From Prolixibacteraceae bacterium (lineage in GTDB: Bacteria > Bacteroidota > Bacteroidia > Bacteroidales > Prolixibacteraceae), in NCBI GenBank assembly GCA_019459485.1, contig JAIBEZ010000028.1, positions 124,001 through 188,000 of the forward strand: a stretch of 64,000 bases of DNA. The letters are read 5' to 3'. The translations under genes were made by a program, and so were the position numbers. Below the pieces are notes generated by a model that had not been told where the DNA came from, did no database searches, and saw only the letters and a list, made by a program, of their open reading frames with translations. The number at the start of each line of letters is the position of its first letter. Within the stretch, counting starts at the first letter, position 1. Of the stretch, positions 13,973 through 45,154 are shown piece by piece.

Positions 13973-14013
13973 AAAAAAAACTGGCAACTTGAAATGATAT
14001 CAGGTTGCCAGTT
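13973..14013 (-). terminator. Rho-independent terminator of the SusC/SusD/FAS1 operon
   Basis: Read on the minus strand, AACTGGCAAC (14013-14004) pairs with GTTGCCAGTT (13988-13979), 10 perfect pairs around a 15-nt loop, followed by an eight-T tract (13980-13973). It sits 25 nt past the SusD stop and closes the operon that starts at 29511. Confidence 0.92.
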
Positions 14014-14037: not shown

Positions 14038-15939
14038 TTAATCGAACATTTTGATGTACCAATTTTTTTCGTCGAGCAAAAGATTATAAATGGACTCCCG
14101 CATACCTGAAGGATATTTGGCTGAAACCTTTTTTGCCAGGAATGAAGGGTCGTTGCGACGTTTGGCCACCCTGACCAAATCGTAAAAACGTTCACCCTCG
14201 AAGGCCAATTCCCTTGCTTTCTCATCAAGAATTTTTTCTTCCATGTATTTCTGTAAATCATACTCTTTGCCGTTACCGCTAAAATCAATATAATCTATAA
14301 CTTGATTGGTGTAAGGATCGTGCACATAATTGATGTTTCCAACCTGTATCAATCCATTGTTAGCGGCGGTAAAACCAGCACGGCCACGAATGCCAAGCTG
14401 AGCACGATTCGCAAGAACATCGTAATTGCTACCGTCGTTTACAATATTCATGGCTTTAAGTTTATTTGTTTTGACAACGCCACTAGCATCTCTCTGAGCC
14501 AACCATGTATAAATCTCGGCCAGATAAAGTTGAATTCCGGCAGCTCTGTAAATGATAAAATTAGCATCCTCGTCATAAGTTTGTTTGTCGATTGAATATT
14601 TAAAGACGATTGTATCAAACCCATCCATCATTGAAGTATAGGTACGAACATCATTTTTCATTTTATAATTGAGCATTCCAGTTCCGTTCGAACTATAAAT
14701 AGATGAGAAATAACTTCCATTTTTCATGTATATATAGGAAGTCCCATATCCACGGTAAAAATCGCTTGGAATTCCAGGATTCAATTTGTTCAAGGTGGTA
14801 AGCCATGGCTTTGTCGCATCGGGAATAACCAAGCTATAGTAACTCCAAGTGGTTTCCCATAAATCAATCGCTGCCTTGGTGGGCTTTAGCATGTATTGAT
14901 GAGGCCCCCATGACTCAAATAAATTTTGAAAATCGTTCTGCTGCTGGTTTACTTTGTCGAAATTCAAGGTAAAAATGTGTTCACTAAGATCGATTCTTGT
15001 AAAAATATTTTTCCATAGACCTTCAGAAAAAGTCTCGTCAATCTGGTAACGGTAATCAATATCAGGATCATAAGCATTAGCGATAATGTTAAATTTAGCG
15101 GCAGCCTTTGCCAAATCTCCTGAAGTCAGATACATTTGACCCAATAGTGCATTCAAAGCATAGGTATTCCAAATAGTGACTTCCCATGTTTTATCTGAGT
15201 TGACACTGTAATGGTTCACACCAACCACCCTCACATCTTCTTCCAATTGTTTAGTGAATTCCTTGATCACCATGTCTATATCATAAAACTGTTTTGTCAG
15301 AGTAATAGATTGATTGTAAGTAGTATCGTTATAGAAACCATCCCTCCCAAACACTATACTTACATTATCAACATAGGTTTGCGTTGAATTTAAATACGCT
15401 TCAATCTCTTCAACCGATGAGAGTGATTCATGAATGACCGGAATTTTGCCATAGATCCTGACTGCATTAAAATAAGCCCATGCCCGCATACAAAGAACTT
15501 CTCCATATAACTTATCGTAATTACCGAGTTCCGAAACCTTCCTGGATTTATCAATTACCTCAGGATGACTCTTTTCTAGCTGCGTAATTAAGCTGTTACA
15601 AGCAGATATCAACTTATAAAAGTTAGTGGGATCGGCATATTTATTTGTTTTTGATACCTGAAAGTTATAGATCTCGGCCAAATCAGCGTTGGCATTTGAT
15701 GTGGTCTTCAATAAATCTCCCCGCAATTCGCCCAGAACCATTAACTGTTCAACCAATTCCTGCTGCAAGTTGTATAACCCCATAGCTACAGAACGATATT
15801 CATACCAATCATCAAACATTTTGTCTGATGTGATATCTAATTCCTGGTCGGGGTTAAGAAACTCTTTACAGGAAGGCAGAAATACCACCGACATCAAAAG
15901 TGATAGTATAACAACGGAATATTTCAGATTTTTGCGCAT
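14038..15939 (-). CDS. SusD/RagB-family outer-membrane lipoprotein (second pair)
   Basis: This 633-aa nutrient-binding lipoprotein has signal peptide and lipobox FLPSC with Cys24, followed by KEFLNPDQ as is typical for SusD. The TPR-like helical core is visible in VLCMRAWAYFNAVRIYGKIP (about residues 150-170) and the conserved C-terminal segment EKILDEKARELAFEGERFYD, where SusD proteins share the (E)R..ELAFEG.R..DL signature. It caps the SusC barrel encoded 19 nt upstream and binds oligosaccharide at the cell surface. It is somewhat longer than the usual 500-600 aa. It is the last gene of the operon and the terminator follows. Confidence 0.93.
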   Translation of the reverse strand: MRKNLKYSVVILSLLMSVVFLPSCKEFLNPDQELDITSDKMFDDWYEYRSVAMGLYNLQQELVEQLMVLGELRGDLLKTTSNANADLAEIYNFQVSKTNKYADPTNFYKLISACNSLITQLEKSHPEVIDKSRKVSELGNYDKLYGEVLCMRAWAYFNAVRIYGKIPVIHESLSSVEEIEAYLNSTQTYVDNVSIVFGRDGFYNDTTYNQSITLTKQFYDIDMVIKEFTKQLEEDVRVVGVNHYSVNSDKTWEVTIWNTYALNALLGQMYLTSGDLAKAAAKFNIIANAYDPDIDYRYQIDETFSEGLWKNIFTRIDLSEHIFTLNFDKVNQQQNDFQNLFESWGPHQYMLKPTKAAIDLWETTWSYYSLVIPDATKPWLTTLNKLNPGIPSDFYRGYGTSYIYMKNGSYFSSIYSSNGTGMLNYKMKNDVRTYTSMMDGFDTIVFKYSIDKQTYDEDANFIIYRAAGIQLYLAEIYTWLAQRDASGVVKTNKLKAMNIVNDGSNYDVLANRAQLGIRGRAGFTAANNGLIQVGNINYVHDPYTNQVIDYIDFSGNGKEYDLQKYMEEKILDEKARELAFEGERFYDLVRVAKRRNDPSFLAKKVSAKYPSGMRESIYNLLLDEKNWYIKMFD

Positions 15940-15958
15940 GATAACTATTTAATATATT

Positions 15959-18900
15959 TTATAATCCTAGTTTAATACCAATAATAAATTGCCTTGCTTG
16001 TGGGGTTTGTCCATAATCCACTCCTTGTTCATCGTGCGAATAGGAATAAGAGAATTCTGGGTCGTAGCCTAAATATTTGGACACTGTCAGCAGATTGTTG
16101 GCTGAAACATAAAATTCTGCATTTCTGAATTCGAGGAATTTGTTGGGAATCTTGTAACTAAGCGAAACATTTGAGACACGAAGATAAGTCCCATCCTCTA
16201 TCCAACGCGACGAAAAAGAAGAGTTGCCCATCGGGTCGTTCCACAGTGGACGTGGCACATTTGTAACCTGACCTTCATATACCCACCGGTTCAGTACATA
16301 AGCGCTTTGATTTTCCAGGCCTGTCATTTTTTCATTCTGGTACCTTACGTAGTTGAATATCTTATTTCCTGAAACAAAGTTAATATGAGTATTAAAAGAC
16401 CATCTTTTATAGGTAAAGGTATTCTGCAAGCCGCCGTATAAATCAGGCATCGATGAGCCAAGGGTTGTTTTGTCATATTGATTTATGATACCGTCAGGAG
16501 TGCCATCTGCGCCTGAAATATCCTTAAACTTTCCGTCGCCTGCCGAGTATTGCACGAATTTATCATTCATTAAGTTTGCAGCTGAAGCTTCCTCAGAGGT
16601 TGAATAAACTCCTTCATAAATGTATCCGAAAAAACTGTTTGCAGCCGAACCCACCTGATTAACAGTTTCACCTCCGGTAATCTGATTGACAAGCTGATCA
16701 CCTTTCAACGAAGTTATTTCATTTTTAACTTTCGAAACGTTGGCCAGAATATCCCATTTAAATGTCCTGCTATCGATAACACGAAGGGAAACCGATAAAT
16801 CTAAACCTTTATTTTGCATTTTTCCACCATTTTCAGGCCTGTAGCTATATCCCAGATAAGATGATACAGGCGCCAGAATCAACATGTCGTCAACGGTGCT
16901 TTTGTAAATATCGGCCGCTACCTTGACACGATTACCAAACAATGCAAAATCGATCCCTCCATTGAGTTGGCTCACGGTTTCATAACTTAACTTCTTGTTA
17001 GATATAATAGCTGGGTACAGACCAACTGTTCCCCTATATTTGCCAGAAGCGTAATAATTTGAACTATTGGATTCGCCGATATCATCGTTTCCGGTTTTTC
17101 CATACGACAATCTTAATTTTAACTCGTCGAGCCAACTTAACCTGTTAAACATAGATTCGCTCGATAAGCGCCATGCAAGGGCGCCACCATAGAATAACCC
17201 TAAACGATTATCCCCAATACTCAAAGTATGGATGGCCTCTTCGCCAATTCTTGATGATGCATCAAGTGAAACACTACCCGAAACCAGGTACTTGTCTTTG
17301 TAAACGTAATTAAGGCTTTCGTATATTGAAACAGAGTTCCAATTTCTATTTGCCCCGCCAGCTTGGCGTAAATTATCGGTACCATCCTGTATGTCTTGGT
17401 ACTGATCATTTTCAGAGGCATTCATTGTGAGGCCCCAATCAAGTTCATATTTATTCATCATCAAATTCAACCCGGTGTTTGAGGTGACATTGTGAATTTG
17501 GTTGAACACTTTTTTATAGGATAAGTAGGTGTTGTTGTAAATCGACAATAAATAATCATTGGTGGCTTTGGAAACATTGTAAGCTTCGTCGTCATAGTAA
17601 TGAGCCATTCCATGATTGGGCATAAAAATTACCTCCTTCAGGTTGTTGTATGTTAAACTGAAATTTGTAATAAACATCAGGTCTTTTGTCAGATCTCCTT
17701 CAAATCCCATGGTTGAAAGAAAATGGTAATTGTTGTTTGATGCTTTATAACTGTTAATGATAGCAACCGGGTTACTCACCCCAAGTTCGTCCACTTCAGT
17801 GAGGTTCGAATTCTCCAGGCCATTGAGGTCATATTGGTAAGGATTCAACATAGGCGATTTTCCCAAAGCTGCCAAAATTGGACTGGTTTCTTTCACCTTA
17901 GCTGATTCCTTCATATTTGCAGAATTATAATTAAACGTAACATTCGCGTTCATCCTTAGCCATTTAAAGACATTTAAGCGACTAACAAACAGAATATTAT
18001 AGCTGTCATAGTCACTTGACTCAATTATTCCCTCACTTGTGGTATATCCAAAAGAAAGACCATAACGGGCAATGGCATCGCCACCTTTTACTCTCAAATT
18101 TACATTGGTAAACCTGGCATCTGCAAATATTTTATCTTGCCAGTTAGTATTGTGCTGGTAATCAATATACCGGGCGTCTCTGGGTGTGAGAAAAAGGGTG
18201 GGATAATTTAGTTTGATGTCTTCTTCGTAAAGGCCTGAAGAAAAAATAGCTTCATTGATCAACGTTTTATGCTGACTGGCATTTAATTGAGGAATCTGGT
18301 TTGCTGGAGCCAGTGAATACCCCGAACGTAAATCAACATCAATCGAAGTCTGCAAAGCGCTTGGGTTGAGGGTTTCAACAAATACCAGCCCGTTGGACGC
18401 TTTGGAGCCATAAATGGACGTAATCGTGGGATCCTTGACGACAGTCACATGCGAAATATCGAGCATATTAACCGCTGATAAAGGATTATAGGCAAATCCG
18501 TCAAGGTTGGTGGTAAAAAGGCCTGGATTTTCCATGGGTATTCCGTCAACGACATACAGAGGTTGGCTATTGGCGTTGATCGAATTTATGCCACGGATAA
18601 AGCCAACCGCCCCCGTTCCGGGCGCTCCTTCCCTCCGAATTGAATACATACCGGAAACTTTGCCTTGTAAATATTCATCAATTGATATTGCAGGCGTTTT
18701 ATTGTTATCAACAGTACTCAAATCAAAATAAGATGCTGTCATGTCCTTTCTTAGTATCGTTTGAGAAAGAATATTTAAAGGATCAATACCTGCAGCTAAA
18801 TCATTGTCAGTCAAGTATATTTTTAACTGGTTCCGGTTGTTCAGAAAAATCCTTCGAACTTTAAAATCACTAACCGGAGAAATCACTAACCAATTATTAC

Positions 18901-19162
18901 CAGAACTCGACTTAATCGTAAATTCTCCGGCATCGTTGGTTACAACAGGTAGCTGACTGGAACCTTCAATACTGATGGTAATGTTTGATTGAGGGGCATT
19001 TGTTCCTGAAACAACTACTCCTTTTACAAGAATCGAGTCTTGTACCAACTTATCCTGCGCTTGCGATGAATAAAAGGCTAAAAGCAACACAGAAACAACA
19101 AGCACAACTCTTTTCCAGGGTGCAACGGTGAATAGGTTATTAATCATTTTATCAAGTTTCAT
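15959..19162 (-). CDS. SusC/RagA-family TonB-dependent transporter (second pair)
   Basis: This 1067-aa outer-membrane oligosaccharide importer has a signal peptide (about 1-36, ending SSQAQ), a CarboxypepD_reg-like domain at about 45-115, a TonB plug at about 140-270 with SIDEYLQGKVSGMYSIRREG and PLYVVDGIPMENPGLF, then the 22-strand barrel ending in the aromatic-poor RQFIIGIKLGL. The plug is divergent from the first SusC, suggesting a different ligand or partner. MINNLF at residue 6 is an alternative start. It is co-transcribed with the SusD gene downstream (19-nt gap) and follows the FAS1 gene by 58 nt. Confidence 0.93.
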   Translation of the reverse strand: MKLDKMINNLFTVAPWKRVVLVVSVLLLAFYSSQAQDKLVQDSILVKGVVVSGTNAPQSNITISIEGSSQLPVVTNDAGEFTIKSSSGNNWLVISPVSDFKVRRIFLNNRNQLKIYLTDNDLAAGIDPLNILSQTILRKDMTASYFDLSTVDNNKTPAISIDEYLQGKVSGMYSIRREGAPGTGAVGFIRGINSINANSQPLYVVDGIPMENPGLFTTNLDGFAYNPLSAVNMLDISHVTVVKDPTITSIYGSKASNGLVFVETLNPSALQTSIDVDLRSGYSLAPANQIPQLNASQHKTLINEAIFSSGLYEEDIKLNYPTLFLTPRDARYIDYQHNTNWQDKIFADARFTNVNLRVKGGDAIARYGLSFGYTTSEGIIESSDYDSYNILFVSRLNVFKWLRMNANVTFNYNSANMKESAKVKETSPILAALGKSPMLNPYQYDLNGLENSNLTEVDELGVSNPVAIINSYKASNNNYHFLSTMGFEGDLTKDLMFITNFSLTYNNLKEVIFMPNHGMAHYYDDEAYNVSKATNDYLLSIYNNTYLSYKKVFNQIHNVTSNTGLNLMMNKYELDWGLTMNASENDQYQDIQDGTDNLRQAGGANRNWNSVSIYESLNYVYKDKYLVSGSVSLDASSRIGEEAIHTLSIGDNRLGLFYGGALAWRLSSESMFNRLSWLDELKLRLSYGKTGNDDIGESNSSNYYASGKYRGTVGLYPAIISNKKLSYETVSQLNGGIDFALFGNRVKVAADIYKSTVDDMLILAPVSSYLGYSYRPENGGKMQNKGLDLSVSLRVIDSRTFKWDILANVSKVKNEITSLKGDQLVNQITGGETVNQVGSAANSFFGYIYEGVYSTSEEASAANLMNDKFVQYSAGDGKFKDISGADGTPDGIINQYDKTTLGSSMPDLYGGLQNTFTYKRWSFNTHINFVSGNKIFNYVRYQNEKMTGLENQSAYVLNRWVYEGQVTNVPRPLWNDPMGNSSFSSRWIEDGTYLRVSNVSLSYKIPNKFLEFRNAEFYVSANNLLTVSKYLGYDPEFSYSYSHDEQGVDYGQTPQARQFIIGIKLGL

Positions 19163-19220
19163 TTTATAAATCGTTTACTCTTCCGATAATCAGATTTGTA
19201 TAGCTAGTTTACTTAGATTT

Positions 19221-20780
19221 TTATAAAGCCGGAATAAATTCAATCGCATCAATTACCAACCCGTTATTGGGAACTGACGTACTTGGCCCCTTATACTCAA
19301 AGCGAATCTTAGCTTTGCCATATTCGGTTATATTATCAACCCAGCAATCGAATTTATTGTAACGACCTCCTCCTGCAGTTAATGGCGCAAATTTAGTTAC
19401 TCCATCAACACTGTTAATAATGGTTCTGTTTCTTATATAGAGGTAATAATCGAAGGATTTGACTAAAACATCATTCACATAAATATCATAGAGCCCTCCA
19501 ATGTCCATATGGGTGGTAACAACCATTCTGTACCTTCTGGGGAAAAGGTCTTTGGAAGAAAATTGAAGTACATAAGTACCTTTATATCCTTTATCAAAGT
19601 TAACTATAAGGATCGAATCGTTCGAGAGGCCTTTGATATAGCTGTTAATTACTTTTAATGAGCTACTAACCGAAACATTCTTTCTCCAGGCATATGTTCC
19701 TGCCCCCGTTGGTATAGTTAACCATTCGCCCTCAAAAGTTTCGGTTCCGGCGAACAATGAATCAGGCACGGTGAAAACTTTATAATCGTAAGTCACCCCG
19801 TTACTGCTAAGGTATTTATCAGTTGGGGTGTAATTCACAACAATGCTGTCAACATTGATGTTTACCATGTTATATTTCTTTCTCTTTGTCAAAACATCAA
19901 TGGTTTCAAATTCAGACTCATCCAGCATATTCAGGAAAACACCATGGTCAAGCAAATGTGGAATCAAAATATTCTCCTGCCATTTCACCGGAATATCTTT
20001 GTAGTCAACAAAATCTCCACCAAGTTTTTGCGCCATTTCTGTCAAACCAGCCTCATATTTTTCCTGTCTGGGAAAAGCGAAAGTGGCCGTCCAAACCCTG
20101 TACTCTTTCGACATCGGAAAGTACTTGGCTTCTACCTCATTATATCTGGTTGCAACAGTATCATAAACAGTATTTCCATTTTCATCGTAGCCGATAGCCC
20201 TACTCTTTTCCCTGTCAAGGACAATGGAATCTTTACTGTCAATGTACGCTTTTAGATAAGTGTTATTTTTGGCGAAATATTCATATAAGTTGAATTTTGG
20301 CACCGCAACTTCGCCCATCACAAAGAACTTACCATTGAGGTACAGCGGACTCTCAAAAGTCAACGGGACATCATCATAAGTCGAATTTCCCCCTACACTT
20401 TCGAAGGTTGAATACTTGTCTTCCAAGGTCTGCAGTTTACGTTTTCCCTGAATACCAACAAGCTGAATAACATGCCTTGATATATGGTAATTCAGAATCG
20501 TGGCACCTATATCTTCTGATTGCATCAATTTATCAATAGCACTGTTATCAGGGATGAAAAGTGTATAACTATCATTTGATGTAAAGAGCGAATCATATTT
20601 GTATTTTACCATCAAATCTACAAATTTTGATAAATCACTTCTTGCTTGTATAGCATCCCAAACATTCATATTGATTGTCTCGGGTAATTTAGTATAATGG
20701 TCATCCCAGGTTGTATTTTTACAACCCATAGCTGTAAAAATAATTACTGTTAGCAAAATGCCTATTTTAGATTTCATCAT
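19221..20780 (-). CDS. FAS1 (fasciclin) lipoprotein with C-terminal sandwich domain
   Basis: I chose the ATG at 20780 (MMKSKIGI). A longer frame to 20822 would overlap the upstream gene and put residues before the signal peptide. The ATG at 20777 is equally possible. The product is about 519 aa with lipobox FTAMGC (Cys20). Residues about 30-180 are a FAS1 domain (SYTLFIPDNSAIDKLM, ILNYHISRHVI), residues 180-345 are a divergent second FAS1-like part, and the last 160 residues are a beta-sandwich ending NNGLVIDAIEFIPAL, like a carbohydrate-binding module. It lies between SusD and SusC genes in the operon. It is probably a surface protein binding glycan or matrix, a role inferred from position and domains. 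Confidence 0.82.
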   Translation of the reverse strand: MMKSKIGILLTVIIFTAMGCKNTTWDDHYTKLPETINMNVWDAIQARSDLSKFVDLMVKYKYDSLFTSNDSYTLFIPDNSAIDKLMQSEDIGATILNYHISRHVIQLVGIQGKRKLQTLEDKYSTFESVGGNSTYDDVPLTFESPLYLNGKFFVMGEVAVPKFNLYEYFAKNNTYLKAYIDSKDSIVLDREKSRAIGYDENGNTVYDTVATRYNEVEAKYFPMSKEYRVWTATFAFPRQEKYEAGLTEMAQKLGGDFVDYKDIPVKWQENILIPHLLDHGVFLNMLDESEFETIDVLTKRKKYNMVNINVDSIVVNYTPTDKYLSSNGVTYDYKVFTVPDSLFAGTETFEGEWLTIPTGAGTYAWRKNVSVSSSLKVINSYIKGLSNDSILIVNFDKGYKGTYVLQFSSKDLFPRRYRMVVTTHMDIGGLYDIYVNDVLVKSFDYYLYIRNRTIINSVDGVTKFAPLTAGGGRYNKFDCWVDNITEYGKAKIRFEYKGPSTSVPNNGLVIDAIEFIPAL

Positions 20781-20791
20781 TTTTAAGTTTG

Positions 20792-22366
20792 TTAGATTGG
20801 TTCGAATCGGATTAAATCCCATATAAACGTGCCCGGAATCAGGGGTTTAATTTGAACTGTATGAGAGTCATACTTTTTAAAGTCAACAGCTCCAACATTA
20901 ATATCAACGTATGGATTGCTTTCACTGCCACCTGATTGTAAATTAATAAGTCCCCCAAGTTTATTTCCGTCCATCGAAAGCTCAACTACAGCATTTTCAG
21001 AACTGAATGCATGGGCCCTGAGTATCACATTGTATTTACCCTGAATAATCTTAGGGAGCACATAAGTAATGGTAAAATCGCCACTAATTTTTAAGTAATC
21101 CTTGTTATAAGACAACTCAGAATCGTCAAATGATTTTACATAGTACAATTCCGGTCCGGACCATGTGACATTTTTTATTGTCTTTGGATCATCAATCAGG
21201 TAAGTGCCACCTTTTATTTCATAATCAATCATGTCTTTTGTGGGTTCATCCCAAAATGAGAACGAAACAAACGCCCTCGAAGGAACCTGAGGCTTTAGAA
21301 TCTGGTCGACGAAATGGATGGCGCCACTTTGAGTTACAACATTACTTGCATCATAGTTAATTCCAACATAGTCAACGATAGTGGTATCGCCATTAACTGC
21401 TATCGTATCAAAAATTTCTTTCCCTTTATTAATCAGGATATCAAGTCCTGTTCCATCTATCCTAATGGGTAAATCGGCAAAGGTTCCATAATTGGTAGCC
21501 TCTGTTTGTGAAGTGAAATCGTTTAAGTACAAACTTTGCGTTAAAATATGGTATCCAACAAATGAGTACAATGGGTTAGTAATGTTTGTATAATCAGTCC
21601 TGTCCGGACTAATTAATTTTACCAGGTCCTCAAATGAATTGATGTTTCGCTTTTTATAGACAGAATCAGCTTCAACCAACACTGTAAATGGTGACAATTC
21701 CTGGTCTTCTGATTTCATGTCCACATCAATTATTTTATCGATGCCGGTAGCTTCGATGGCTGACAGAAGTATGGAATAACCAGGATTACTTTTTAACCAG
21801 CCATAGCTGTTCTGGGTAACAGGCGTAAGCATTACACCAATTACATGAACATATCCATTCGATACTTCGATATTTGTTTGGATCACAGGAGCCTGATTAT
21901 TTATTTTGAAATAAGTAGTATCCGTTTCTATGATATAGTTTACATTTAAATAATCATCGGAAAGTGTTGCTTCGGAAAAGGCTCCATAGGGGAAACCGGT
22001 AGTTTTTACACCCATATTTACAACATGATACCTTGCAAGAGCTGAAACATAGGATTTATCGCTCAATAAATCGTTGAGTGAAGAATACTGACTGTTATTC
22101 GCAATAAATTCAGCAACAGCATCATTGCTGGGGGCAAAAAGTGTATAATCAGCTCCATTTGGGTTATAGGCGCTTAAAGTACCTTGAAGATCAGCTGCGT
22201 TAACAATCTGAATGAAACTTGAAAAGGTGTCTTCATGAGCGACCAGATAATCATAGGCTGTATATTTCTCCATGTCTTTGAATCCAGCCTCAACAAAAGA
22301 TTTGGTGCACGAATATTGCATCGAAAAAGCAACAAACAAGCTTAGTATAGTTAAAATTCTTTTCAT
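20792..22366 (-). CDS. FAS1 (fasciclin) lipoprotein with C-terminal sandwich domain
   Basis: This 524-aa lipoprotein has signal peptide with MQYSC (Cys20). The first FAS1 domain is about 35-185 (DYTLFAPSNDAVAEFIANN, ALARYHVVNMGV, YVHVIGVML). The second is about 190-360 (PFTVLVEADSVYKKRNI, ligand-like FVGYHILTQSLYL, AIHFVDQILKPQ). The C-terminal 150 residues (SFSFWDEP to FIWDLIRFEPI) look like a jelly-roll binding domain. It starts 3 nt after the first SusD stop, so translation is coupled. In this position PULs usually encode a SusE/F-type surface glycan-binding protein, which makes that a reasonable guess for its role. FAS1 folds are better known for adhesion. Confidence 0.85.
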   Translation of the reverse strand: MKRILTILSLFVAFSMQYSCTKSFVEAGFKDMEKYTAYDYLVAHEDTFSSFIQIVNAADLQGTLSAYNPNGADYTLFAPSNDAVAEFIANNSQYSSLNDLLSDKSYVSALARYHVVNMGVKTTGFPYGAFSEATLSDDYLNVNYIIETDTTYFKINNQAPVIQTNIEVSNGYVHVIGVMLTPVTQNSYGWLKSNPGYSILLSAIEATGIDKIIDVDMKSEDQELSPFTVLVEADSVYKKRNINSFEDLVKLISPDRTDYTNITNPLYSFVGYHILTQSLYLNDFTSQTEATNYGTFADLPIRIDGTGLDILINKGKEIFDTIAVNGDTTIVDYVGINYDASNVVTQSGAIHFVDQILKPQVPSRAFVSFSFWDEPTKDMIDYEIKGGTYLIDDPKTIKNVTWSGPELYYVKSFDDSELSYNKDYLKISGDFTITYVLPKIIQGKYNVILRAHAFSSENAVVELSMDGNKLGGLINLQSGGSESNPYVDINVGAVDFKKYDSHTVQIKPLIPGTFIWDLIRFEPI

Positions 22367-22369
22367 CGC

Positions 22370-23842
22370 TTAGTAGGTATAATAGGTGTTTTGAACCAGG
22401 TTTTTATTGCGTTCCATTTCGCTTTTGGCAATTGGCAGATACCACCCAAGTGGATTCGTTAGCCTTGCTGATAAGATACGCTTTTGGGTTGAAGGGACAT
22501 TGGCAACAATCAAATCAATTAGTTTGGCTTTTCTTTTGAAGTTATTTCTGCGACCCATCCGTAACAAGTCAAACCAACGTTTTCCTTCGAATGCCAATTC
22601 CACGGCCCGTTCGTCCATAATAGCATCTTCATATGCATCGGCTGAATTTGCAATTACCAGTGGATTCATATTGGCTCTTACCCTGATTTCATTCAAAAGT
22701 TCAGCCGCATCAGTAAAACTGCCCAACTGCGATAATGCTTCAGCCTTCATTAAATAGATATCTGCAAGCCGGTATACAATCCAGTTACAACTATTTTGAA
22801 TAGAAGAGAAACGTACTGATTTACCGTTAGGGGAACTCCCAACATATTTCCAGATGATGTAATTATCTTCTGATATTTTAGCAATGGATTTATCTTCACC
22901 CCTTGTTCGTTCAACGGAATACTTTTGAGCAAATAATTGTATGGCCGTTTGGCTCGGTAAATATTGACGTGCATTTTGGTTGGTAATCCCAAAAGTGCCA
23001 TTCCTTTGATTATTCAAGTCACTGAATTGGATTTCAAAAATACCTTCCAATGAATTTCCCGGATAAAACAATTCAAACCATACGGGACTGCGCAATAACA
23101 CATATTTGGGGTTGCCCATAATACGGTCACAGGCCTCAATGCATCCTGCATAATCAAATCTCCAGAGACAAATATCGGCAATAAGCGCATCGAACGAAGA
23201 TTTTGTTGCACGACCTTTTTCTTCCTCGGTAGTAGTATATTCGTCGCTTGCATACAGACGATATTCATTCAGATATTTCAGCATCTCTACCAAAATTTCA
23301 TCGCCATCGGTTTTCGGGAGGTAGAAATCAGAGTTGTCGGTCTCCGACGGTTCTATAACCAATGGTACATCCTTAAAAATCCGTACCAGGTAAAAATAAC
23401 TCAGACTTCGTATAAAATGAGCTTCAGCCAAAAAACTCTGTAACTGAAACTCTGTAAAAGTATTGTCGATTTTCTGAACCTCCGGCGCATTTTTAATCAC
23501 ATCATTACAGTAATTAATTGCTGCATAAAAGCTGGCCCAATTGCACAGCGAGTTATCTGCTGTAATATTGCCCTCCATAAGATTCAAAACATCACCGGAC
23601 CATTCATTATGGGCTTCAACCATATCCGCACGGGCTTCGCCGTATGTAAACAGGTTACCATTCAATGAAGCCACCTTTTGGTATGCGCCCATTAAAACTG
23701 CCTCAACATCAGATTTTGTTTTCCAGAACTCTTCGCGAACCAATCCGCTATTGGGCAATAATTCTAAATAATCGGCACACGAAAATTGAAGGCTCATTGC
23801 CAAAAACAAAAGAACAACTCTTAATTTAAATATCTTTTTCAT
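22370..23842 (-). CDS. SusD/RagB-family outer-membrane lipoprotein (first pair)
   Basis: This 490-aa SusD homologue has a lipobox at Cys22 (LQFSC) followed by ADYLELLPNSGLV. Typical features are TKSDVEAVLMGAYQ in the N-terminal part, AEAHFIRSLSYFYLVRIFKD in the TPR core and DERAVELAFEGKRWFDLLRMG near the C-terminus, all conserved in the family. It lies 18 nt downstream of its SusC partner and 3 nt upstream of a FAS1 gene. It would bind incoming oligosaccharide and gate the SusC barrel. Length is normal for the family. Confidence 0.94.
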   Translation of the reverse strand: MKKIFKLRVVLLFLAMSLQFSCADYLELLPNSGLVREEFWKTKSDVEAVLMGAYQKVASLNGNLFTYGEARADMVEAHNEWSGDVLNLMEGNITADNSLCNWASFYAAINYCNDVIKNAPEVQKIDNTFTEFQLQSFLAEAHFIRSLSYFYLVRIFKDVPLVIEPSETDNSDFYLPKTDGDEILVEMLKYLNEYRLYASDEYTTTEEEKGRATKSSFDALIADICLWRFDYAGCIEACDRIMGNPKYVLLRSPVWFELFYPGNSLEGIFEIQFSDLNNQRNGTFGITNQNARQYLPSQTAIQLFAQKYSVERTRGEDKSIAKISEDNYIIWKYVGSSPNGKSVRFSSIQNSCNWIVYRLADIYLMKAEALSQLGSFTDAAELLNEIRVRANMNPLVIANSADAYEDAIMDERAVELAFEGKRWFDLLRMGRRNNFKRKAKLIDLIVANVPSTQKRILSARLTNPLGWYLPIAKSEMERNKNLVQNTYYTY

Positions 23843-23860
23843 AATTCTTATTCATTGGAA

Positions 23861-26800
23861 TTAAAACCCTACAGATAAACTAATAGTAACCACTCTGGGC
23901 GGCGGAGTTTTGGCATTATCCTTACCAATATCAAACGGATCGGCAGCATTTTGCCCAACTTCAGGATCCTGTCCTGAATAATTAGTGATAGTAAATAATT
24001 TACGTGCGCTGATCGAAAAACTTGCACTTTGAACTGATAATTTACGACATAACTCGTTTCCAAGGTCATAACCAAGTTTGACATTGTTTAAACGCATAAA
24101 ATCGCCTTGTTCTACATACCGGTCAGATCCCAGGTTGTTGGCAGGATTGTTCATATACGCCCTGGGTAACATGCCTGGTTCGTTTTGTCCCTGAACCCTC
24201 CAACGATGCAAAACGGCTTTACTTTGATTATCTCTTCCATTCATCCCTTCGGCATTAAGCGCTGTCATATTAATGATGTCGTAACCGACACGATAATAAA
24301 TAGAAAAGGAAAAGTTCCAGTTTTTATACCTTAATGAGTTTCCAAAACTACCTGTCAAAGTCGGATTCGAATCGCCAATATAGACTACGTCATTCAAATC
24401 AATTTTACCGTCATGGTTGACATCTTCATAAATAGCATCACCACCTTTAAACAAATAGGTTCCTTTATAAGTCATCGGAACGGCAATATTTTCGCCATCG
24501 TACATTATGTTTCCTTCGACATCCCTTGCAACAGCATCGGCATCGGAGGCATAAACCCCTTTGTACCTGAACCCAAAAAAGGATCCTATTGATTGTCCGG
24601 AGACTATCCTTTGCGGGTATTCACCGTTATTTATCGATACCGCATTTTCTGTATTAAAGTTATCAGGTAATTCCAAAAACGAGTTAATGTTCTGAGAGGC
24701 GTTAAAATCAACTGAGACCAGCCAATCCTTTGTCCTGACGATTTTCCAGTTGGTCATAAATTCCCAACCTTTATTTTCCATCTCACCGCCATTAAAGTAC
24801 TTCAGCGTAGAAAACCCTGAGGATGTTGGTATATTGTAACCTTGCCAGTTATTTGACGGGAACATAATATCCGTCGTGTTTTTTGAGTAAATTTCCCCTG
24901 AAACAAAAAGACGGTCTTTGAACAGGTTCAAATCAAAACCTAAGTTAATAGAGGTAATAGACTCCCATTTAAGATTATCCAATTGAACTTTGGTTGGGAT
25001 AATAGCTGAGTTGGTTATATAGCGACCTGAAGATTCGTAAGTAGCAAACCGTGCATAAGTATCGCCGGGAGGGCGTCCCGAAGTTCCCCAACTCGCACGC
25101 AATTTACTCTCACTTAACCAACCTGAGCTATTGGATAAAAATGGTTCTGAGGAAAAACGCCATGCTCCTGAAATACCTTTGAATACTCCCCAACGGTTAT
25201 TAATACCAAAAGCTGAATTAGCATCTGCCCGCACCACCGTTTGTAACATATAACGGTCTTTATATTTATAGTTCCAGGTAAACAAAGCGCCCAAATCACG
25301 TGACTCAGTGTTGCCTGACCGAAGTGATTTTTGATACCATGCAGCATTGGGTTGATCAACAATCTGACCGCCATTGGCAGGGTCTTGAATATCGGTACTG
25401 GGAGATTTCGAACTCTCAACAGATATAAATTCCGAATTATTCTGATTTGTAATCCAGGATAAAGTTCCTGACATCTCATGATCTGTTTTCGTAAACGGGA
25501 TGGTATAGGATAACAATGACTCAGTCCTAAATGAAGATGATTGATCATTCACTTCGGCCGATCTGTTAACCAAATAATTTAACCAGTCAACGCCAATTGC
25601 ATCATAAGGTAAAAATTTATTGTCTTTTCTCCCTCTATAAGTAAAAGATACCGATTCCCTGAAAACCAGCCAATCGGCTATCGTATATTTTAACTTAAAG
25701 CTATTTTCAATAGAAGTGTTATTTGAATTGTTTTTCCCCAATTTGGCAACTGCCACAGGATTGAAATAATCCTGACCATTCCCCTGATAACTGTTGACAG
25801 GCGTAAAATACTCACCGGTAGGCACCCCATCAGAGTCATATTCCATGACACTCATATTTGGGGCTTTCATGTATGCCATCTCTCTCACGTTTCTATTCTG
25901 CCAGCCATTGGTTAAACCCATCTCATAATTACCTTGACGTGTCTGGTTGTTATAATTGAACTGAACGGTAAACAAAGTCTTCTTCGATAAGAAATAATCA
26001 AGGTTCACGCGTGACGAAAATGTTTTTGCGCCGGTATTAATTGTTGTACCGCCTTCATTTACATAGCTGAAAGAAGTAAAATACCGGGTTTTTTCACCAC
26101 CGCCTGATATCTTAAAATAATGATCATTTGTCGCTGAATTTTGGGTAATCAGAGACAACCAATCGGTATTGGCCGAATAATTATAAAAAAGGGCATAATC
26201 CCTATTGTAAGCAATCTCGTCGGGCGTTGAAAACACACCATAGGCGTTGTGCATCTCTTCGAGCTGAAGTGTGGTGTATTCATTACCGTTCAACATCGGG
26301 ACTGCGGGAGGTTGAAAATTCATACTGTTTTTGTACTGGTAATCAAACTGTACTTTACCCATCTTGCCCCGGTTGGTTTCGATTAATAAAACACCGTCAG
26401 CACCTTGAGAACCATATACCGCAGTAGAAGCTGCGTCTTTTAATACTTCAATTGATTTTATATCTTGCAAAGCAACGTTTACCATACGGCTAATATCCTG
26501 TGAATCAGAAGAGCTGAGATCAAAACTACTCGGCACATTGCTTTGGGGGATTCCATCAATGACTATCAACGGTTTGTTATTTCCAATTGAGCTCAAACCC
26601 CTGATCACTATTTGCGAACCAGAACCGGGGTCACCTGAAGCGCTGATAATATCCAGTCCCGAAACTTTACCCTGAAGGGCATCAGCCGCCGAGGTAATAC
26701 CGGCATCTTTCATTTCCATTAAATCAACTTTTACGCGCGATGAAGCGTTGTCGCGTTCTTCAATATTCGTAAGCTGATTATCCGATTTTGCTTTGGCAGT

Positions 26801-27142
26801 AATTGTTACCTGATCTAATTCGATATCGGATGAAACAAGTTCGATTACTACAGCTTTCTCGAAATTGGGTTTAATCGGTTTGGTTTGATATCCGATCACG
26901 CTTACGTTCATTGTATTTCCCGGATCTTTCATCTGGTAAACGAAATTGCCATCAATATCGGTAATTGTCCCATTTATAACACGATTGGTTTTATCAGATT
27001 CAACAATCGTTGCACCAATCACCGCCGATTTATCCTTCTGGTCAATAATTTTTCCACGAATGGTATTTTTTGTCTGAGCATAAGCTCCGACAAAACAACA
27101 AAGTGCAAGAATCAGAGTTATGATTTTTTTAATTTTTTTCAT
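23861..27142 (-). CDS. SusC/RagA-family TonB-dependent transporter (first pair)
   Basis: This is a 1093-aa canonical SusC. The signal peptide is 1-22 (FVGAYAQ). The CarboxypepD_reg-like domain at about 25-110 reads IRGKIIDQKDKSAVIGATI. The plug has ALQGKVSGLDIISASGDPG, SQIVIRGLSSIGNNKPL and VIDGIPQSN, the hallmark of the family. The C-terminal barrel ends in VVTISLSVGF with terminal Phe, the expected BAM recognition residue. It is energised by TonB-ExbBD (not in this window) and imports oligosaccharides together with the SusD encoded 18 nt downstream. The upstream FAS1 gene ends 47 nt before it. Confidence 0.95.
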   Translation of the reverse strand: MKKIKKIITLILALCCFVGAYAQTKNTIRGKIIDQKDKSAVIGATIVESDKTNRVINGTITDIDGNFVYQMKDPGNTMNVSVIGYQTKPIKPNFEKAVVIELVSSDIELDQVTITAKAKSDNQLTNIEERDNASSRVKVDLMEMKDAGITSAADALQGKVSGLDIISASGDPGSGSQIVIRGLSSIGNNKPLIVIDGIPQSNVPSSFDLSSSDSQDISRMVNVALQDIKSIEVLKDAASTAVYGSQGADGVLLIETNRGKMGKVQFDYQYKNSMNFQPPAVPMLNGNEYTTLQLEEMHNAYGVFSTPDEIAYNRDYALFYNYSANTDWLSLITQNSATNDHYFKISGGGEKTRYFTSFSYVNEGGTTINTGAKTFSSRVNLDYFLSKKTLFTVQFNYNNQTRQGNYEMGLTNGWQNRNVREMAYMKAPNMSVMEYDSDGVPTGEYFTPVNSYQGNGQDYFNPVAVAKLGKNNSNNTSIENSFKLKYTIADWLVFRESVSFTYRGRKDNKFLPYDAIGVDWLNYLVNRSAEVNDQSSSFRTESLLSYTIPFTKTDHEMSGTLSWITNQNNSEFISVESSKSPSTDIQDPANGGQIVDQPNAAWYQKSLRSGNTESRDLGALFTWNYKYKDRYMLQTVVRADANSAFGINNRWGVFKGISGAWRFSSEPFLSNSSGWLSESKLRASWGTSGRPPGDTYARFATYESSGRYITNSAIIPTKVQLDNLKWESITSINLGFDLNLFKDRLFVSGEIYSKNTTDIMFPSNNWQGYNIPTSSGFSTLKYFNGGEMENKGWEFMTNWKIVRTKDWLVSVDFNASQNINSFLELPDNFNTENAVSINNGEYPQRIVSGQSIGSFFGFRYKGVYASDADAVARDVEGNIMYDGENIAVPMTYKGTYLFKGGDAIYEDVNHDGKIDLNDVVYIGDSNPTLTGSFGNSLRYKNWNFSFSIYYRVGYDIINMTALNAEGMNGRDNQSKAVLHRWRVQGQNEPGMLPRAYMNNPANNLGSDRYVEQGDFMRLNNVKLGYDLGNELCRKLSVQSASFSISARKLFTITNYSGQDPEVGQNAADPFDIGKDNAKTPPPRVVTISLSVGF

Positions 27143-27189
27143 GAGTTGAAAAACCTTAGGTTTAAAATTTACGATTTAATGCTGGTTTT

Positions 27190-29511
27190 CTATTGAGTAT
27201 CCACCTGATCAAACAACAAAGGCTTATTGATTTCATGGATCACGCCATTATTCAACGAATTGGGAAAAGCTCCTGTAGTACTCAATTCGCGTCCTGTAAT
27301 AATATTTGACTTCAATGATTCATTCACTATTACTCCGGAAGTTCCGTCTTTATATGGAATGATTATTTGATCGATTCCTGTGTTAATTCTGATTTTTGTA
27401 TTTATCGTAGAATAAGTCGTAGAACTTTCATCGATCCTTGCAGTCTCATAATACCCGCTTTGTTTGTTACCATCAGTAAAAATCAAATCCCCCTGAATAA
27501 AATGCATTAAAACAAAGTTCTTAAGTTGTGCTGCGGTTAAGGCATCTGTATTCATCGTATTCAGCAATGAATCGGAGGGTGCAAATACCGTATAGTTTTG
27601 ATTTTCGGATGTGAAACTATATTTAAACTCTTTATCGAGACTAAGCCCGGCCTTTCTGATTAGGGCGTGAAACTTAGGATAATTTGTAGAAATCTCACTA
27701 AAAAGATTTCTAACCGTGAAACTAAACCAGTTATCAATTTCAAAGGTAACCCCGTTGTCAGCATTGGTACTAATTTGGCGGGGGATATTAACAACAGTCT
27801 TTACTCCGTTGTAGCCATAGGTTGTAGGCGCGGTTCCCCTAACTTCATTGGTTACATTATTGAAAATGATAAAATTTCCGGCTAAATTCTTGATAAATTC
27901 TTTTCTTGCTATTCCCTTGGGACGATCAATGGCAACGTGATTCATCAAAAGCAAGCGAAGATCCGATTCTGTTAACGGTGTTGCCATAACTGAAGGGGCA
28001 AGGGTTACAACTTTGAATGTTTCCCTCGCGGCATCGTAGATGAAGGAAGAATCGATTGAAGACAATTCATCGCGCTCAACAAAAAAACTATACGTAGAGT
28101 TTTTTCTTTTTAATGCCGGTAATAAATCTGATTGTTCAATAGCATACATCACTTTTTGAAAGCCTTTGCGCGTATATATTGGCCCGGTAACACTGCTGAA
28201 TGCGCGTGGCACAACTGGCTTGTTTACACCAATGAACGTACAATTGCTACCATATTCCTTCTGCACAATGCTTGATACATCAATCAATACATTGTCAGAT
28301 TCACCATTCTCAAACCCTTTTTGTATATCCGTTAGGTACACCGGCTTAAGAGAAAGACCGGAATTGGCGATTATCTTCTTAATATTTTCGGGAGCAGCAT
28401 CAATACTTCCCCAATTATTACCGCCTGCAAGATATTGGCTCTCAAGCTGGTTGTAAGCTTCGTCAGTAGGAGCAACAATTCCCTGATGGTAACGGATCGA
28501 CACATTACCCGGAAGGCCGGTGGTACCTCTGGGAGCTACTGTCCTTTCACTTGTAATGTTAAATAATAGTTTAGGATAGTATAAACTAAAAAGCGAGTCA
28601 ACAGCCAAACCTTCAGAAGCGCCAGGTTGCTTAAAGGTTTCGGTTTCATTGTAAGAAAACTCTGAAAATGAATTGATGAGATTATAGTATTTTGAATACG
28701 AGTTACCTTTACTTTTGTCAGCCAACAATTCAGCGCCGCTTTTTAGTGGCGCAACCACGCGGTCAACCACGTAAATAAAGCCATTTTCTGCAAAGATCTC
28801 AACACCGGTTATTTTTGCATTCAGATAATAAATGTCACTCATGGCTTCAAATTGCCTTCCAAAATAAAACCCGAAATCTGTAGCCGCCACCAAATCATAA
28901 ATATCAAAATACTCTTTATAAAAGAGGGGCGCGTACTTCCTCGAATCGGTAAAGACCCTCCGATGCCAACTGGTAGCAGTCGTATCTATAACATCCTGAC
29001 GTTTGGGTTGTGTCCCTTCCCCCAATCGCTTGTACTTACTCCAGGCAACTCCGTACAATTTATTTTTTTCCCGCAAAAGGGTTTCACGTTTGTACCCTTT
29101 GGGCTCATCATTACTCAGATCAAGCGTATCAATCCAACCGTGGACATCAAGGGTCGTTAATTGTTTCTTGCTCCAGGCATTTTGCACCAAATGATACTTT
29201 ACCAAATTCAGCACTTCTGATTTTGGTATATCAGCAACTTTTTTGTAAGTAGGATTATCCTGAAAATACTTGGCGAAAGCATCGTTCGAAGGAGCAAAAA
29301 CAGTATAGCTACCTGATACATCAATAATGGTATCGTAACCCGAAATCTGAAGCAATTCGGCAAAGGTCGAAAGTTCAGGTTGGGTAAGAATTTGTGCATA
29401 TAATTTTCCGGCAAGCCAAGTAGGACGTTCAAATTTGTCGAAGTCCTCTTTGCAACCAAAAAATAGTAACACAAATAACGTAATTAGGATTAGTTGTTTA
29501 TTCTTTGTCAT
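27190..29511 (-). CDS. Large multi-FAS1 lipoprotein, first gene of the SusCD operon
   Basis: This 773-aa lipoprotein has lipobox LFFGC with Cys20 followed by acidic KEDFD. FAS1 domains can be followed by their conserved TVFAPS boxes and late H-containing helices: SYTVFAPSNDAFAKYFQ with VLNLVKYHLVQN (domain 1, about 40-255, with a large insert), GIVAPTDEAYNQL (domain 2, about 265-450), STYSFFVERDEL with LLLMNHVAIDR (domain 3, about 455-600) and NYTVFAPSDSLLNTM with NFVLMHFIQGD (domain 4, about 605-765). No extra sandwich domain was noticed. It is the first gene after the predicted promoter, so it should be the most abundant product of the operon. A surface scaffold or binding role is an inference. 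Confidence 0.85.
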   Translation of the reverse strand: MTKNKQLILITLFVLLFFGCKEDFDKFERPTWLAGKLYAQILTQPELSTFAELLQISGYDTIIDVSGSYTVFAPSNDAFAKYFQDNPTYKKVADIPKSEVLNLVKYHLVQNAWSKKQLTTLDVHGWIDTLDLSNDEPKGYKRETLLREKNKLYGVAWSKYKRLGEGTQPKRQDVIDTTATSWHRRVFTDSRKYAPLFYKEYFDIYDLVAATDFGFYFGRQFEAMSDIYYLNAKITGVEIFAENGFIYVVDRVVAPLKSGAELLADKSKGNSYSKYYNLINSFSEFSYNETETFKQPGASEGLAVDSLFSLYYPKLLFNITSERTVAPRGTTGLPGNVSIRYHQGIVAPTDEAYNQLESQYLAGGNNWGSIDAAPENIKKIIANSGLSLKPVYLTDIQKGFENGESDNVLIDVSSIVQKEYGSNCTFIGVNKPVVPRAFSSVTGPIYTRKGFQKVMYAIEQSDLLPALKRKNSTYSFFVERDELSSIDSSFIYDAARETFKVVTLAPSVMATPLTESDLRLLLMNHVAIDRPKGIARKEFIKNLAGNFIIFNNVTNEVRGTAPTTYGYNGVKTVVNIPRQISTNADNGVTFEIDNWFSFTVRNLFSEISTNYPKFHALIRKAGLSLDKEFKYSFTSENQNYTVFAPSDSLLNTMNTDALTAAQLKNFVLMHFIQGDLIFTDGNKQSGYYETARIDESSTTYSTINTKIRINTGIDQIIIPYKDGTSGVIVNESLKSNIITGRELSTTGAFPNSLNNGVIHEINKPLLFDQVDTQ

Positions 29512-29662: not shown

Positions 29663-32600
29663 TTATGCTACACCTGATTGATTTGTGCTATTGTTTGTGG
29701 CTGTGCTTGGCATCCCTTTTTGCCTGAAGGCCGATGGGGTAACATTGAATTGTTCCCTGAAACACTTCACAAAATAGGATAAATTATTGAAGCCTAAACT
29801 GTATCCTATTTCCTTAATTGAAAGACTGGAATTGGACAATAATTCACAAGCCTTCTGCAACTTGAATATGCGGATAAATTCAACTGGAGAAAGTCCAGTA
29901 AGGGCCTTAAGTTTCCGATACAAATGAGTAGTGCTGATGTTTAAATCGGATGATAACTTTTTAACATTGAAATCCGACTCCGAAAGATTATCCTCGAGCA
30001 ATTGCCTTAGTTTAATAATGAACTCATCGTCTCTTGAGATATTGGAAGTGGATACCTCAACCATAAAATTGTGTGTCATGTATCTTTCCCGAATCAATTC
30101 CCGGTTCTTGATCAGGCGCGAAATCTGTGCTTTAATGATGGACAGATCAAATGGTTTTGTGACGTATGCATCAGCGCCTCTCTCATAGCCTGAAACAATA
30201 TGCTCAGAAGCATTGTTCGCTGTTAAAAGAATGATCGGAATATGGCATGTTTTTCCATTCTCTTTTATTTTTTTGCACAATTCATATCCATCCATTCTGG
30301 GCATCACAACATCCGAAATTATGATATCCGGGATAATTTTGCTGATAAGTTCATAACCCTCTTTTCCATCACTTGCTTCATAACAGTGATAATTGTTTGA
30401 TAAAGTCTTTTTTAGGAAAGTCCTCAGATCAATGTTATCTTCCACAATAACAATGGAAAGTTCATGTCCGTTCTTATCAAACTCAATCGCCTGTTCGGTT
30501 TCATAAATTTCATCTTGCCATAAAAAATCGTTCTTTTCAAGTTCAGTATCCAATTCACTGACTTCAATTTTATTAAACGGCAATAAAACATGAAAAGCTA
30601 CTCCTATACCATTAACAGACTCAACATTGATTATCCCGTGGTGCATTTCAATGAGTGATTTCGAAAAAGAAAGTCCGATTCCAGCGCCATCCACCTCTTC
30701 GCTGACTTTATAAAACCGATCGAATATTTTTACTTTATCTTCATCCGATATATCCCTTCCTTCATTAAATACAGTTATCCTAACTTGTTTTTTGTCGCCC
30801 ACCTTCTCAACCGAATTAGCTGGAACAATCTCAAGCGAAACTTTGATAGAATGATTTTCACTGGTATGTTTAAATGCGTTGGATAATAAATTATAAAGTA
30901 CTTCTTCAATTTTTTGGCTATCGATACTTATCATTATTGACTTATCCGGAACCTGCACTTCTAAATTGGTTTTTCGCCGGCTTTCCAGTCCTTTAAAATT
31001 TGCAGAGACATCCTTTATCAGCAAACCCAAATCAACTGTCCGGAGATTTAATTGAAGTTTCCCGGCATTTAATTTTCGAAAATCAATGATTTGGTTAATC
31101 AGAGTAAGTAAATAATTTGAATTGCGATACATCAGGTTGATATGGTTCTTCCACTTCGGATCAATATTCGTATAATTCTTCATTATATCTTCTATGGGTG
31201 CAACTACTAAACTAAGGGGTGTTCGCAACTCATGAGCAATATTGGTAAGAAATTTCATTTTATTTTCGTTTGACTCAAAGCTGATCGCATCAATTTTTTT
31301 CTCAAATGAAACTCGCTGTCGTCTGACAACTGTATGAATTGTCACACCCACGATGGCAATAATCAGGAGAAGGAAAAGAGCAGTCATATACCATGTTTTG
31401 TACCAGGGCGGCAAAATATGGATATGTAAAATTTTTTCCTGCGTAGCTTCAATATTATCAGCGCTCAATCCACTTATGCGAAGCGTATATTTCCCGTCAG
31501 GTATTTTCGAAAAATAAATGTACGGATTGTTCGCAGAAGGGATTGTAATCCATCGGTCACTATATCCTTCCAGTTTATATCTTATCCTATTTCCATCGGG
31601 ATACTGATAATGGTGAACCCCAACTCCTATACTAAATGAGTTTTTATTGTAGGGCAGTACAATATTATTGGTTTCATTTAATGATTTCAACATAATATTC
31701 CCACGGCTGATTGTGTCACCAATTTTCACAATCTGGTTCATGATACGGAAATCGGTTAAACCGATTTTGGGAGGAATTGGATTTAAAGTGATCTCATTCG
31801 GATAAAATCTGGTGAACCCATTATCTCCACCAAAAAACATTTCCCCATCAGACGACTTAAACCAGGAATTGACTTTAAAAGTTTCTCCCTGAATTCCGTC
31901 CGATTGATTATAATAGGTATAGGGTTTGGTTTTATTGTTAAAGTCGATTGAAACAATGCCCTTATTGGTGCTGGCCCATTTTTTTCCTGACTGGTCAGAT
32001 AAAATGCCCTGAACATCATTTCCCGGTAAACCATTTTCTATAGTGAGATGGGAAAATGTATTCGAATCAGTATTCAAAATATTTATCCCGCCCCCTTGGG
32101 TTGCCAGCCATAGCTTCCCATCATTGTTTTCGAAAATGCAATTAATCTCATTGGCATTCAAAAAATCATTTTCAGGATTGGTAGCAATAAATCGTTTAAA
32201 ACTCATTGTTGGACGTGAAGTTCCTGACAAATCAAGTTTATCATAGGGTGTCTTTAGCAGATTTAAGCCATTATTTGTACCGACCCAAAATCGGTTTTTG
32301 CTATCAATCAGCATTGATATTATTGTCTTGTCAGAAATTCCATCAGGATCGGTTGGTTCATTGGTAAACCGATAGGATTTCCGTTCAGGATTTTTTTGCA
32401 AATCAGAAAAAAATATCAGACCTTCTCCGGAAGCTCCACACCAAATGTTGTGGTTTTTATCAATGAGAACTTTCCTTACTGTCCCCTCATACAATGGCGG
32501 TTCTTTGGAATTACCATAGATCCACCCCCGACTTGTTTTTCTCAGCTTATCGAGTCCTCCGGTTGATGCAACCCAAAAAACAGAATCAGACTCACGGGCA

Positions 32601-40306: not shown

Positions 40307-40326
40307 CCAAACTAAATTTATAAACC

Positions 40327-41295: not shown

Positions 41296-41345
41296 CAAGG
41301 TCATTTGATTGTCATTCAGTAGTCATTTAGTTGTCAATAGTTCTG
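41296..41345. repeat. Intergenic GTCATT-type short repeats
   Basis: The spacer holds three to four imperfect copies of a GTCATT(T/C)AG-TTGTCA phrase (GTCATTTGATTGTCATTCAGTAGTCATTTAGTTGTCA, read from 41300). The same phrase, in both orientations, recurs at 56224-56317. Function unknown. Confidence 0.55.
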
Positions 41346-41373
41346 TAAACCTAAACTTCAAACACATATTGTC

Positions 41374-42054: not shown

Positions 42055-42058
42055 AAAG

Positions 42059-42105: not shown

Positions 42106-42126
42106 AAATTTAGTTAATCAGTCTTT

Positions 42127-43728: not shown

Positions 43729-43837
43729 AAACAGTGTTCAGTCGCAGTAGTCAGAAATCAATTATCCCTCGGACGAAAGGATCACAATTTTAATAAATGG
43801 CACGAAAGAATTTGAAATTTCAACAAACCTAACCAAC

Positions 43838-45142: not shown

Positions 45143-45154
45143 GGGGAAGGATTT

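Follow-up and report, generated by a model that had tools for sequence, protein, structure and literature searches.

A conserved operon encoding two SusCD pairs and three FAS1 lipoproteins, a probable glycan uptake system of a Prolixibacteraceae bacterium

A seven-gene operon encoding two SusCD pairs and three lipoproteins with FAS1 domains was analysed in a Prolixibacteraceae bacterium. The window, which is the whole stretch of DNA analysed, comprises 64,000 nucleotides (nt) of contig JAIBEZ010000028.1 (GenBank assembly GCA_019459485.1, positions 124,001 to 188,000). With moderate confidence, the three proteins, FAS1a, FAS1b and FAS1c, are proposed to bind glycans and to act as scaffold parts within an uptake system that has two SusCD pairs and whose substrates here are probably plant-cell-wall beta-glycans. 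The proposal was drawn from the gene content, the predicted fold of FAS1b and FAS1c, the gene order conserved among relatives and the common descent of the two pairs. The seven-gene set looks like a little-studied nutrient-capture machine.

Results

The operon consists of seven minus-strand open reading frames (ORFs) running from 29511 down to 14038, in the order FAS1a-SusC1-SusD1-FAS1b-FAS1c-SusC2-SusD2. Its features are as follows.

27190..29511, minus strand: FAS1a lipoprotein, 773 aa, probably four FAS1-like units (Pfam Fasciclin 5e-29, weak profile matches)
23861..27142, minus strand: SusC1, TonB-dependent transporter (NCBIfam TIGR04056, 686 bits)
22370..23842, minus strand: SusD1 lipoprotein (Pfam SusD_RagB 2e-36, SusD-like_3 7e-15)
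20792..22366, minus strand: FAS1b lipoprotein, 524 aa, two FAS1 domains and a predicted CBM6/35-like sandwich (Pfam, structure model, Foldseek)
19221..20780, minus strand: FAS1c lipoprotein, 519 aa (Pfam, structure model, Foldseek)
15959..19162, minus strand: SusC2, TonB-dependent transporter (NCBIfam TIGR04056, 606 bits)
14038..15939, minus strand: SusD2 lipoprotein, 633 aa (Pfam SusD_RagB 3e-11, SusD-like_3 5e-9)
13973..14013, minus strand: intrinsic-type terminator at the operon end (stem-loop and T-run in the sequence, RNA fold)

The coordinates were verified, and the intergenic gaps computed from them are 47, 18, 3, 11, 58 and 19 nt in gene order. These figures use the FAS1c start at 20780, the second start of its ORF; overlap with FAS1b would result from the longest ORF (533 aa), whose start is at 20822. 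No further ORF of at least 200 aa was listed inside the operon. The terminator stem-loop with its T-run (about 14013-13973) folds at –22.8 kcal/mol with a z value of –5.15. A pattern scan for terminators missed this stem-loop, and the five terminator-like sites that it reported on the minus strand all lie outside the gaps between the seven genes. The gene order, the gaps of 3-58 nt and the single strong terminator described in the initial annotation were thereby reproduced, and the layout suggests a single transcript. Pfam found Plug and CarboxypepD_reg in both SusC proteins and SusD families in both SusD proteins. Both SusC proteins exceed the NCBIfam SusC/RagA cut-off, and NCBIfam has no name for SusD2 or for any FAS1 protein. 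Adjacent SusC and SusD genes thus occur twice, and a regulator of the hybrid two-component system (HTCS) type, a glycoside hydrolase family 5 (GH5) gene and other GH genes are linked to them in the window, as expected of a SusCD-type polysaccharide utilisation locus (PUL).

The three FAS1 proteins were identified by the Fasciclin family (PF02469), with scores of 101.4, 88.9 and 33.8 bits against a cut-off of 22 and E-values of 5e-29, 4e-25 and 4e-8 for the 773-, 524- and 533-aa ORFs, respectively. FAS1a has two clear Fasciclin stretches by Pfam. Weak profile matches in FAS1a and 14 homologues point to four units, and its paralogue on contig C39 has four FAS1 matches. FAS1a probably holds four FAS1-like units, of which two are clear and the others weak. 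FAS1b has two FAS1 domains (about residues 36-358) followed by a sandwich domain (about 366-524). In FAS1c, Pfam recognises a single FAS1 domain; a second, divergent part resembles FAS1, and a sandwich domain (about 346-519) is present as well. A Cys at residue 20 follows the signal peptide in all three proteins, and a lipobox pattern was found in 39 of 48 FAS1b, 46 of 48 FAS1c and 15 of 15 FAS1a proteins, in agreement with the clear lipoboxes noted initially. Acidic residues after the lipid-anchor Cys averaged 1.9-2.5 of six, a raw figure without control comparison. All three are lipoproteins encoded within a SusCD operon, as is usual for surface glycan-binding proteins (SGBPs), and neither Pfam nor NCBIfam assigns them to an SGBP family. 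As a side observation, those FAS1a N-termini listed at sufficient length show a conserved [FY]-x-x-P-x-W-L-x-G soon after the lipid-anchor Cys, a candidate docking motif.

Structure models of FAS1b (pLDDT 89.0, pTM 0.79) and FAS1c (pLDDT 89.3, pTM 0.80) were built on 48-row alignments of the window proteins and their genome_contigs orthologues. Both models consist of FAS1 folds and a C-terminal jelly-roll beta-sandwich, the fold group of the carbohydrate-binding module (CBM) families CBM6 and CBM35. Among the best 50 Foldseek matches in the PDB considered per model, TGFBIp and periostin were found for the FAS1 parts. The sandwich matches common to both models were MiXBM (7ehg), CBM35 (2w1w), Xyn30D and CtGH5-CBM6; CBM6E and an agarase CBM6 were matched by FAS1b only and CBM35 4qb2 by FAS1c only. 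The sandwich matches were placed at the C-terminus by fold type, as the Foldseek output is without the aligned model stretch. The TM-score by target length to 7ehg reached 0.79 for FAS1b and 0.73 for FAS1c, at 15-18% identity. Pfam matched no CBM family in FAS1b or FAS1c at E 0.1. The predicted models bear out the binding-type fold that was expected of the C-terminal parts of both proteins, and the CBM likeness first annotated holds for the fold and not for the sequence. Conserved aromatics were listed from the alignments.

FAS1 is best known from adhesion proteins. The FAS1 proteins could mainly be adhesins or a scaffold that attach the cell to insoluble fibres or cells to each other, with the sandwich serving protein contact. 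The adhesion proteins TGFBIp, periostin and fasciclin I among the FAS1 matches, and the FAS1-only FAS1a with no CBM-like domain by Pfam, agree with this. On the other hand, the genes are closely linked to transporters and a sugar-type regulator, and many of the top sandwich matches bind glycans. The fold is not decisive, since the same Foldseek lists include insecticidal crystal proteins and further proteins, non-binding or otherwise, of similar sandwich fold; for this reason glycan binding is not provable from the fold alone. The adhesin reading was judged rather unlikely, and the "substrate adhesion" role suggested initially would have the known FAS1 adhesion proteins as its sole basis.

The conservation of the module was surveyed with searches that were all seeded on FAS1b, and final locus labelling used all ORFs of at least 100 aa without pruning of overlaps. 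In the genome of the window, FAS1 matches occur in six proteins: three in the window, two on contig C39 and one alone on contig C90. The C39 copy reads regulator-FAS1a-SusC1-SusD1-FAS1b-SusC2-SusD2, without FAS1c, and is 23-39% identical to the window copy per protein (regulator 26%). No FAS1 gene was found by profile in 40 stretches around other SusC/SusD genes of this genome, a part of all such sites. Two side observations concern C39: an ORF judged transposase-like from its sequence stands directly behind the module copy (L013, 18763-20000), and a further tandem SusCD-SusCD without FAS1 lies on the same contig (L195, C39:34500-46013).

A FAS1b relative at E 1e-10 was found in 56 of 100 genomes of the family. 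Forty matches, hand-picked for spread, made up a family set of 42 loci together with the window and C39 copies. The order FAS1-SusC-SusD-FAS1-FAS1-SusC-SusD was present in 27 loci, six modules lacked FAS1c and one had a third middle FAS1; the fixed order was counted as held in 34 of 42 loci (32 of 40 without the window and C39). Two loci were cut by contig ends (L055, L078). In genome_contigs, which overlaps the family set in genomes, 38 of 54 loci were complete and the other 16, all in part-module order, reach a contig end. None of the 54 lacked FAS1c. The closest relatives there are mostly labelled Prolixibacteraceae or Bacteroidales, and the carriers include the cultured strains Mariniphaga anaerophila DSM 26910 (L112) and Tangfeifania diversioriginum DSM 27063 (L137). 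Median intra-module gaps in these two sets were 3-37 nt, obtained with ORF picking that kept the longest of overlapping ORFs.

In a phylum sample, 38 of 148 genomes matched the profile at E 1e-20 (up to 10 candidates scored per genome). Besides the genome of the window, four genomes gave a match spanning most of the profile; each of these matches belongs to a copy of the module, which is full in three cases and lacks FAS1c in the fourth. In an order sample, 25 of 198 genomes matched at E 1e-40 (up to seven candidates scored per genome), and 15 of 20 loci were complete, the other five being cut by a contig end or by the fetched stretch. L276 is counted as complete here, its FAS1c being a strongly diverged 626-aa ORF that matches FAS1 at E 1e-12 when filters are off. 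Some order-sample loci are identical to genome_contigs loci. SusD1 is present in L047, L057 and L065, FAS1c in L075, L105 and L129, and the first half of the module in L267. Other families, both within the order and in the wider class, also show the module order, and a viral_contigs scan with the wide alignment gave no relative. The recurrence of FAS1 genes next to SusCD in relatives, on which the initial idea depended, was recovered, with a fixed gene order. A chance neighbourhood was ruled out, because the same order in diverged copies exceeds chance. The module seems multiplied in G353 and G356, and these genomes have seven and six FAS1b matches; the four loci examined, two from each genome (L268, L270, L271, L272), are all full modules.

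Free-standing FAS1 proteins were rejected as members of the same system: partial FAS1 matches from outside the family were followed to 16 loci, and 15 of these lacked SusCD. The exception, L184 (8908-16117), has the other layout SusC-SusD-lipoprotein-FAS1, and its SusC falls outside the clade of pairs 1 and 2. At L062 (7619-10549), two FAS1 genes are transcribed divergently and SusCD is absent; one encodes a 588-aa FAS1a-like protein, the other a 373-aa protein whose length does not allow for the sandwich. FAS1b relatives of a length similar to the latter, matching only residues up to about 358, were observed in G050, G080, G041 and G029. L064 (5227-8349) and L070 (8320-12597) have FAS1b-like genes in the vicinity of GH2-type enzymes, again with SusCD absent.

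SusC1 and SusC2 are about 31% identical. In a tree with 39 further SusCs from the genome of the window they formed separate clades that are sisters (quick tree method, SH-aLRT 100), with controls all from one genome, so that other natural SusCs could fall between the pairs; smaller-control trees contained 20 other SusCs. Twelve loci branch in the same order within the SusC1 and SusC2 clades. Sister clades with the same branching order suggest that both SusCD pairs stem from one old duplication that was retained as a unit. Two results oppose the sisterhood of the pairs. First, SusC2 scored 292, 289 and 278 bits against SusCs on C10, C50 and C96, and 269 bits against SusC1; the tree still joined pairs 1 and 2 when these SusCs were added as controls. 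Second, the support of the SusD pair-2 clade is 25 with L172 included. One fully supported branch parts FAS1b from FAS1c in their tree. The FAS1c of L075 was left outside this tree, the distance comparison and one of the 20-control trees.

Tandem SusCD pairs occur in other PULs, and the window genome itself has another one without FAS1 (L195). The operon may thus hold two ordinary SusCD systems for different products, one of them served by the FAS1 proteins; the low SusC1/SusC2 identity fits this as well. In contrast, both pairs are present in every uncut locus with FAS1b and SusCD among those surveyed, and the SusC clades share their branching order. Two merely co-transcribed systems were considered improbable.

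The genes around the operon bear on control and substrate. The HTCS regulator lies upstream of the operon, and the GH5 gene, probably on its own transcript, lies downstream past the terminator.

29663..33850, minus strand: HTCS regulator, probable controller (Pfam Reg_prop, Y_Y_Y, HisKA, HATPase_c, Response_reg, HTH_AraC)
11791..13743, minus strand: GH5 endoglucanase-like protein with a type IX secretion system (T9SS) sorting tail (Pfam Cellulase 1e-43, Por_Secre_tail)
38399-40306, plus strand: GH44 with T9SS tail (Pfam)
42127-43728, plus strand: GH26-CBM35 (Pfam)
43838-45142, plus strand: GH30C (Pfam)
46596-48833, plus strand: GH43-CBM6 with T9SS tail (Pfam)

The closest PDB relatives of the GH5 protein are endoglucanases, and it has a weak CBM30-like part under the Pfam cut-off. 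The carbohydrate-active enzymes at 38399..48833 likely belong to the same catabolic island as the operon. Given GH5 and the GH44, GH26, GH30C and GH43 neighbours, the island looks built for plant-cell-wall beta-glycans. Next to the regulator, a divergently transcribed gene (34370-38218) encodes a 1282-aa protein with a Lamin Tail Domain. Twenty hand-picked neighbour proteins of relatives were also scanned. They comprised four GH5 (three with CBM6), three GH9 with CelD_N, one GH26-CBM35, one partial GH26 with a pectate-lyase-like part, one further pectate-lyase-like protein, one GH95, two DUF2961 and one DUF4832; four had only a secretion tail or PKD part and two were without match. The GH26 of the window is 55% identical to that of L104. 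The module core is constant and the surrounding enzymes are variable. Differing neighbours could speak for a cargo other than plant glycans, such as peptides or bacterial polymers, and SusC/RagA proteins can carry peptides too (PMC7661554). However, the HTCS regulator and cellulase-type neighbours oppose such cargo, which was regarded as very unlikely.

Discussion

In the proposed glycan uptake system, the HTCS regulator would turn on the single operon, and secreted T9SS enzymes (GH5, probably GH44 and GH43) would cleave plant-cell-wall beta-glycans extracellularly. FAS1b and FAS1c, predicted to be lipid-anchored at the surface, would grip glycan chains with their C-terminal CBM-like sandwich. 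The FAS1 domains and the FAS1-only FAS1a may act as spacers and docking parts that keep both SusCD pairs together with the binding modules. The oligosaccharides would be imported via SusC1D1 and SusC2D2.

Several points weigh against this proposal. FAS1a has no sandwich domain at the sequence level. The CBM resemblance in Foldseek is at 9-18% identity. FAS1 genes occur without SusCD in six of the 42 family-set loci (L062, L064, L070, L080, L081, L082), so FAS1 proteins appear able to act without SusCD. Pairs that had split off without FAS1b would escape the surveys. The correlation of pairwise distances among the seven proteins (Spearman 0.56-0.82 over 33 loci, 25 where FAS1c is involved) agrees with the proposal, but it is also expected of a co-inherited operon and is no proof of contact. 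Finally, the enzyme types vary among relatives (GH5, GH9, GH26, GH95, DUF2961, pectate-lyase-like), so the substrate may vary.

The FAS1 proteins resemble SusE/SusF and other SGBPs in being lipoproteins encoded next to SusD, with several domains and a distal binding-type domain, but FAS1 domains stand in place of the Ig-like spacers of SusE/SusF-type SGBPs. TGFBIp, periostin and fasciclin I share tandem FAS1 domains and are the top fold and sequence matches; unlike the proteins here, they are animal adhesion proteins, and to our knowledge they have no transporter link. CBM6/CBM35 and MiXBM share the beta-sandwich of the FAS1b and FAS1c C-termini, with the low identity to 7ehg and the lack of a matching CBM family model given above as differences. 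If the proposal is true, FAS1 has a bacterial role in nutrient capture.

A FAS1 gene in a cellulase-type PUL is already known. In Gramella portivictoriae and other Flavobacteriaceae, a PUL of cellulose/hemicellulose-like type likewise combines a protein with a FAS1 domain, SusD-like and AraC-type genes and the enzymes GH5, GH9 and GH26; the text section of that 2016 paper gives the FAS1 gene no role (PMC4891872). For a symbiont that has SusCD loci, another paper mentions a FAS1 protein as highly transcribed and takes it as adhesion (PMC10199937), and a third mentions fasciclin solely as an adhesion family, in a non-Bacteroidales bin (PMC7661554). In the passages of these papers that were consulted and in the rest of the literature searched, which excludes subscription papers and preprints, no doubled module, no test of the FAS1 proteins and no role of FAS1 in such a PUL was found, and prior notice is possible.

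In published utilisomes, SusCD is a dimer of one pair, and the SusC lip is the platform for one set of accessory lipoproteins (PMC7618045). The levan utilisome of Bacteroides thetaiotaomicron is alike in its SusCD core with surface lipoproteins encoded beside it; its single SusCD pair comes with a lipoprotein glycosidase and one SGBP, in which two Ig-like domains are combined with a levan-binding domain (PMC7618045). In contrast, the present operon encodes two related pairs, three FAS1 lipoproteins and no enzyme. As the pair was duplicated once and was not seen apart in uncut FAS1b-SusCD loci, a mixed machine is a fair guess. We tentatively suggest that SusC1D1 might pair with SusC2D2 rather than form equal halves, and that FAS1a, FAS1b and FAS1c might form a bridging arm feeding both barrels from one chain. 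Such a heteromer, if true, would add a new architecture to the utilisomes, one shared by many families of this order and by others of the class. The unseparated pair makes it possible to test cleanly whether SusCD pairs that differ assemble into one machine. The best PDB relative of both SusC1 and SusC2 was 8aa4, a SusC homologue.

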